A stretch of 64,000 bases of DNA, taken from positions 62,001 through 126,000 of the forward strand of contig CACDGO010000001.1 in the NCBI GenBank assembly GCA_902552345.1. The letters are read 5' to 3'. The position numbers and the translations under genes are program-made. The first letter of the stretch is position 1. The number at the start of each line of letters is the position of its first letter. Below the pieces are notes generated by a model. It was not told the origin of the DNA and did no database searches. It saw only the letters and a list, made by a program, of their open reading frames with translations. This DNA comes from an uncultured Pelagibacteraceae bacterium. Its GTDB lineage: Bacteria > Pseudomonadota > Alphaproteobacteria > Pelagibacterales > Pelagibacteraceae. Positions 18,715 through 19,241 of this stretch are shown in pieces.

Positions 18715-19155
18715 TTATTTAATATCAATAAGTCTTTTTTTCTTTATTTCTGGGATTATTTTTTCACAAGAAATGGTCAGCAAACCATCTTTTAGCTCAG
18801 CACCGTTCACTTTTACATCATCTGCAATTGTGAAAGATCTAGCAAAAGATCTTTGAGATATTCCTCGATGAATAACTTCATCGCCATCTTTTTCTTCAGT
18901 TCTTTTAACGTCTTTCGTTTTTACAGTTAAAAGATTATCTTCATATTCAACTTCAACATCATTTTTATTAAAGCCAGCAACTGCTACCTCAATAGCATAC
19001 TTGTCTTTGCCTGCTTTACGTATGTTGTATGGCGGGTAATTGCTTTGAACTACGCCACCATTCCCTAACATAGACTCGAACTGATCAAACATGTCATCGA
19101 AGCCTACGCTAAAAGGTCTAAGTGAATTAAAGATCGATAGATCCTTACTTGTCAT
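18715..19155 (-). CDS. ibpA: Small heat-shock protein, Hsp20/IbpA family
   Basis: 146 aa. The N-terminus is FNSLRPFSVGFDDMFDQFE, as in proteobacterial class A sHSPs. The alpha-crystallin domain spans about residues 40-135 (YNIRKAGKDKYAIEVAVAGF, LLTVKTKD, HRGISQRSFARSFTIADDV). The C-terminal LIDIK provides the I-x-I motif used for oligomer assembly. ATP-independent holdase for unfolding proteins. Expression appears heat-controlled at two levels: a sigma-32-type promoter and a ROSE-like leader directly upstream. Confidence 0.95.
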   Translation of the reverse strand: MTSKDLSIFNSLRPFSVGFDDMFDQFESMLGNGGVVQSNYPPYNIRKAGKDKYAIEVAVAGFNKNDVEVEYEDNLLTVKTKDVKRTEEKDGDEVIHRGISQRSFARSFTIADDVKVNGAELKDGLLTISCEKIIPEIKKKRLIDIK

Positions 19156-19210
19156 TTATCCTCCTTTGTTAGCAAGGTTTTATGTCAGTCCCATTTGGCA
19201 ACTAACAAAG
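19156..19210 (-). promoter_or_regulatory. Putative ROSE-type RNA thermometer in the hsp20 5' UTR
   Basis: On the minus strand the leader ends CCTTGCT-AACAA-AGGAGG-ataa-ATG. TTGCT opposite AGGA with one unpaired G is the conserved ROSE anti-Shine-Dalgarno arrangement (U-U/C-G-C-U), here closed by two C-G pairs (19160-19177). An alternative 9-bp perfect pairing CTTTGTTAG/CTAACAAAG (19202-19210 with 19164-19172) also reaches the SD. Either structure would hide the SD at low temperature. Confidence 0.65.
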
Positions 19211-19213
19211 TAG

Positions 19214-19241
19214 ATATGGTTATTATTTTTATTTTTTCAAG
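19214..19241 (-). promoter_or_regulatory. Sigma-32 (RpoH) type heat-shock promoter for hsp20
   Basis: The minus strand reads CTTGAAA (19241-19235), a 13-bp spacer, then AACCATAT (19221-19214). This matches the RpoH consensus CTTGAAA-N(11-16)-CCCCATNT closely. The predicted start site near 19207 leaves a ~50-nt leader carrying the ROSE-like hairpin. Confidence 0.75.

Follow-up and report, generated by a model that had tools for sequence, protein, structure and literature searches.

How is the synthesis of the small heat-shock protein controlled in SAR11, one of the most abundant groups of marine bacteria and one with few regulators? The hsp20 gene examined here lies on the minus strand at positions 18715..19155 of the window (the whole stretch of 64,000 nucleotides analyzed), with its AUG at 19155-19153, and encodes an IbpA-like protein of 146 amino acids. 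It scores above the Pfam HSP20 cut-off, bearing out its original identification, and is the only Pfam HSP20 match in this genome of ~1.0 Mb. The top NCBIfam match is IbpA, with a score under the family cut-off, and the protein is up to 99% identical to copies in named Pelagibacteraceae (SAR11) single-cell genomes. Upstream, 90 bp of non-coding DNA separates hsp20 from the stop codon of a 694-codon open reading frame on the same strand, which we take to resemble an S9-type peptidase. Eight genomes of the same genus that are 87-90% complete (G189, G191, G198, G211, G219, G226, G238 and G286) have no hsp20 match; either the gene has been lost or contigs are missing.

Our comparison covered seven Pelagibacteraceae genera and 82 hsp20 leaders. 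These leaders share a common plan, comprising a sigma-32-type promoter, hairpin I, hairpin II and then the AUG, which is 50-59 nt past the base of hairpin I. In the present sequence the promoter and the hairpin formed by the anti-Shine-Dalgarno (anti-SD) and Shine-Dalgarno (SD) sequences occupy 86 bp of the minus strand (19241-19156), where the original prediction had placed them. The −35 box CTTGAA is at 19236..19241 and the −10 box CCATAT at 19214..19219, with a spacer of 16 nt between NTTGAA and CCATAT; the original parsing as CTTGAAA (19241-19235), 13 nt and AACCATAT (19221-19214) reads as stated on this strand. A promoter is clear in 80 of the 82 leaders, and our promoter counts use those 80. 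NTTGAA is found in all of them, CTTGAAA in 56 and CCATAT in 46; the 16-nt spacer to a CCATAT-like box is kept in 76, and in 68 the −10 box and hairpin I are 7 nt apart. RpoH is encoded in the genome, with a score above the curated cut-off, and the sole other match to its family is within a 630-codon frame that is presumably RpoD. The boxes, their conserved spacing and the presence of a sigma-32 gene therefore argue for the sigma-32-type promoter that had been proposed. Given that the spacing between promoter and hairpin is conserved, the transcript should start near the foot of hairpin I, likely around 19206-19208, so that little or no RNA is likely to precede hairpin I in the mRNA.

Hairpin I (19184..19206, minus strand) has 7 bp, a bulged G at 19199, a CC/GG element and a 4-nt loop (19196-19193). 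Six of its nine pairs exhibit compensatory changes on both sides among the 82 leaders. The covariation score of the whole structure is 0.327 vs 0.181, with none of 500 shuffles as high, and the covariation is destroyed when the partner strand is slid. RNAalifold recovers hairpin I unaided. This hairpin, with a bulged G of its own, was overlooked in the original prediction, and it is the best evidence for kinship with ROSE elements.

Hairpin II (19160..19177, minus strand) comprises the anti-SD CCUUGCU (19171..19177), the loop AACAA (19170-19166) and the SD AGGAGG (19165-19160). When the anti-SD is paired with the SD its G at 19173 is bulged. All 82 leaders have CU(U/C)GCU, and thus the ROSE motif U(U/C)GCU; AGGAG follows 5-9 nt after the anti-SD in 81, and the pairing is kept in nearly all. 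Hairpin II is conserved by sequence and its letters vary too little for covariation, so that the pairing is deduced from complementarity; it is absent from the RNAalifold consensus of the family leaders. The universal presence of the motif nevertheless favors an anti-SD hairpin of the ROSE type, bulged G included, as originally suggested. The leader stands above chance because it is conserved across the family. Taken singly the sequence is weak evidence, folding mildly better than chance (z ~ −1.8), and the promoter pattern by itself shows no genome-wide enrichment, with 9 matches against 6 for the reversed control. Ten further sites in SAR11 genomes were examined and none is a second copy of the element. 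One is an hsp20 leader of the sister family, and the other nine, which overlap coding sequence or gene starts, look like chance. A search with one exact pattern gave no viral copy.

It had also been suggested that a 9-bp stem forms in competition with the anti-SD hairpin, giving a two-state switch. The complementarity does exist, between CTTTGTTAG (19210-19202) and CTAACAAAG (19172-19164), and the minimum free energy structure of an 86-nt segment (19215-19130) contains the stem. It is not formed when the fold begins nearer to the expected transcript start. With a start near 19206-19208 the 5′ half of the stem would probably be mostly untranscribed, and the stem would in any case consume the 5′ arm of the covarying hairpin I. 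Exact CTTTGTTAG occurs in just one of the 82 leaders, that of this genome, and the covariation of the pairing is not above that of shuffles. The complementarity therefore stands as described, and the switch, private to one genome, lacking covariation and absent from the shorter fold, is rejected as highly improbable.

Is the leader a ROSE element? It is the 5′ leader of a small heat-shock gene, has U(U/C)GCU facing the SD, and carries a conserved hairpin upstream. The Rfam search that had been proposed was run, and no ROSE model (RF00435, RF01832 or RF02523) attains its gathering cut-off on the element of this genome. In two relatives the element does draw matches to RF02523 (ROSE_3), with scores of 26.8 and 19.5 bits that fall short of the cut-off of 43. 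The Rfam ROSE consensus, viewed aligned to six plasmid-borne alphaproteobacterial hsp20 loci (63-72 bits), opens with a hairpin of the same layout, having six pairs, a bulged G, CC/GG and a four-base loop. We ran a covariance model of the SAR11 leaders over 385 alphaproteobacterial genomes. The model selects ROSE hairpin I in two of those six loci with E ~0.01. There were 12 matches outside the order at E <= 0.01, of which nine are directly before hsp20, two are before rpoH and one is likely chance. With a broadened model the 15 best out-of-order matches in the alphaproteobacterial set are all before hsp20 or rpoH; since the model was trained on eleven of the 15, only the remaining matches are independent, and its alignment (A3) is fitted to the model and so leans towards it. 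Weak matches before other genes (L129, L272, L273, L275-L277 and L283) were taken as chance; that at L129 resembles a terminator hairpin.

The closest known element is the short ROSE-like thermometer of Pseudomonas ibpA (PMC3669281), which presumably underlies RF02523. The two-hairpin layout is common to both, and in Pseudomonas it has been probed, tested in reporters and found to be heat-responsive (PMC3669281). The SAR11 leader differs in being very A+T-rich and in not reaching the RF02523 cut-off. In the core SAR11 genera the anti-SD is in addition complementary to codons 3-5, a complementarity examined on the SAR11 side of the comparison only. The original prediction regarded layered heat control as notable where the regulatory set is so streamlined. 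The layering is not special, because the combination of sigma-32 and ROSE has already been reported for Pseudomonas ibpA (PMC3669281). The leader shares with the RF00435 ROSE element the plan of hairpin I (a stem, a single bulged G, CC/GG and a short loop) and UUGCU facing GGAGG. However, RF00435 is 94 nt in length, and its long SD stem includes the start codon; the SAR11 leader has a much shorter SD stem and lacks the middle hairpin of RF00435. That model has no match anywhere in this genome. The ROSE_2 element of Escherichia coli ibpA (RF01832) likewise has a hairpin with a single bulged G in the 5′ arm followed by a UCGCU/SD hairpin, but its stem sequences are different and the Rfam model has a long-range closing pair. 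It too has no match in this genome.

We conclude, with a probability of roughly 0.8, that the hsp20 leader of this SAR11 genome is a short two-hairpin element of the ROSE type behind a sigma-32 promoter. Heat or misfolded protein would raise the activity of RpoH, and transcription of hsp20 would start some 7 nt beyond the −10 box. The stable hairpin I would head the transcript, and hairpin II would come next, its CUUGCU paired imperfectly with the SD around the bulged G. By analogy with ROSE elements elsewhere, hairpin II would hinder the ribosome at the growth temperature, and on warming it would loosen, exposing the SD so that Hsp20 is made. The comparison with Pseudomonas ibpA suggests that heat would open hairpin II, with hairpin I serving as a stable platform. 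Melting calculated with ViennaRNA gave little response to temperature here, and was nearly flat also for ROSE loci of known type. Hairpin II is predicted to contribute about −5.5 kcal/mol at 15 °C and −2.7 kcal/mol at 35 °C; this may be set against quoted values of −4.1 to −7.6 for Pseudomonas (PMC3669281), although the temperatures may not compare. Even at 45 °C the model leaves hairpin I ~97% paired. That would also suit a structured RNA that is not a thermometer, in which hairpin I guards the 5′ end, a stabilizing role having been suggested for the Pseudomonas hairpin I (PMC3669281), or in which the leader responds to a protein or small RNA. Such a role is unlikely, given that the anti-SD bears the ROSE motif beside the SD of a small heat-shock gene, in a leader akin to ROSE elements.

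The thermometer may have a second state that involves the coding sequence. The anti-SD (19177-19171) can form 7 bp with AGU AAG G of codons 3-5 (19143..19149, minus strand), with a predicted pairing probability of ~0.99. For a transcript truncated at the AUG, the energy model gives ~80% pairing of the SD at low temperature; with 12 nt of coding sequence the model moves the anti-SD from the SD to codons 3-5 in most core leaders. Over 5-25 °C the median predicted pairing of the anti-SD is ~0.99 with codons 2-5 and ~0 with the SD. It is therefore possible, and we advance this tentatively, that codons 3-5 (AGUAAGG), rather than the SD, are the main partner of the anti-SD, a 7-bp stem then enclosing the SD and AUG in a loop of 21 nt. 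The codon stem would then be either a lock opened by heat or a means of diverting the anti-SD from the SD that tunes the ROSE hairpin, and it may coexist with the ROSE explanation.

Conservation of the codons bears on this. Across 76 core loci, synonymous variation is lacking at codons 2-4 and present at codons 5-18. Because the loci share ancestry they do not count as independent observations, and it is the variable codons alongside that serve as the control. The invariance holds although AAG and AGU are minor codons: in the long open reading frames of the window AAG accounts for ~15% of lysine codons and AGU for roughly one serine codon in four, and within hsp20 genes the shares are ~18% and ~11%, respectively. 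Just 6% of 300 synonymous recodings attained the native level of pairing, and in genus g5, where the start is one codon shorter, AGUAAG is nevertheless retained. Yet three family loci from two other genera (L041-L043) lack the codon pairing, as do 11 outgroup leaders; in the latter, pairing with the SD is preferred. The anti-SD and codon strands are both nearly invariant, so covariation between them cannot be assessed. The early codons may have been selected for another reason, and nearest-neighbor energies leave out the non-canonical contacts of ROSE. For the core Pelagibacteraceae we thus regard as plausible, at somewhat less than even odds, that selection maintains pairing of the anti-SD both with the SD and with codons 3-5, making the thermometer a switch coupled to the coding sequence with its first codons fixed at the nucleotide level.

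Related leaders occur in other settings. The rpoH thermometer of E. coli is of a different kind. In other Alphaproteobacteria a ROSE-like two-hairpin leader with U(U/C)GCU facing the SD is found directly before rpoH, the gene for sigma-32 (L127, L128, L269, L270, L278 and L280, in genomes of 1.2-1.6 Mb from families f23, f40, f92 and f96). A 2014 review states that ROSE is always associated with small heat-shock genes (PMC4166951), and we found no report of a ROSE-like leader before rpoH in the literature searched. The element was looked for before rpoH of SAR11, including L229, and was not found. In several of the SAR11 loci, L229 being among those inspected, TTGAAA-like and TATATAA-like boxes are present shortly upstream of the rpoH start, and these could be a heat-shock promoter on rpoH itself. 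Within the order, sister family f2 (L045-L059) has a longer hsp20 leader, with three hairpins by eye, that ends in AAUCGCUUAAGGAGGAUU. The order therefore holds both a long and a short form of the leader.

This type of control is ordinary in kind, and the SAR11 case is apparently unreported in the literature searched. A 2009 study by Meyer of structured RNAs in Pelagibacter ubique (PMC2704228) contains no reference to heat, hsp or a ROSE element, and the open-access literature yielded nothing apparently relevant on Pelagibacter RNA thermometers or on the SAR11 small heat-shock protein. An earlier notice may exist elsewhere, for instance in a survey of 2005 whose tally exceeded 40 ROSE elements (cited in PMC4166951). 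If codons 3-5 do pair with the anti-SD, the ROSE element here would extend into the coding sequence by way of its own anti-SD. A conserved thermometer on hsp20, if true, would provide a direct handle on how SAR11 bacteria sense warming, possibly tuned to the temperatures of the sea.
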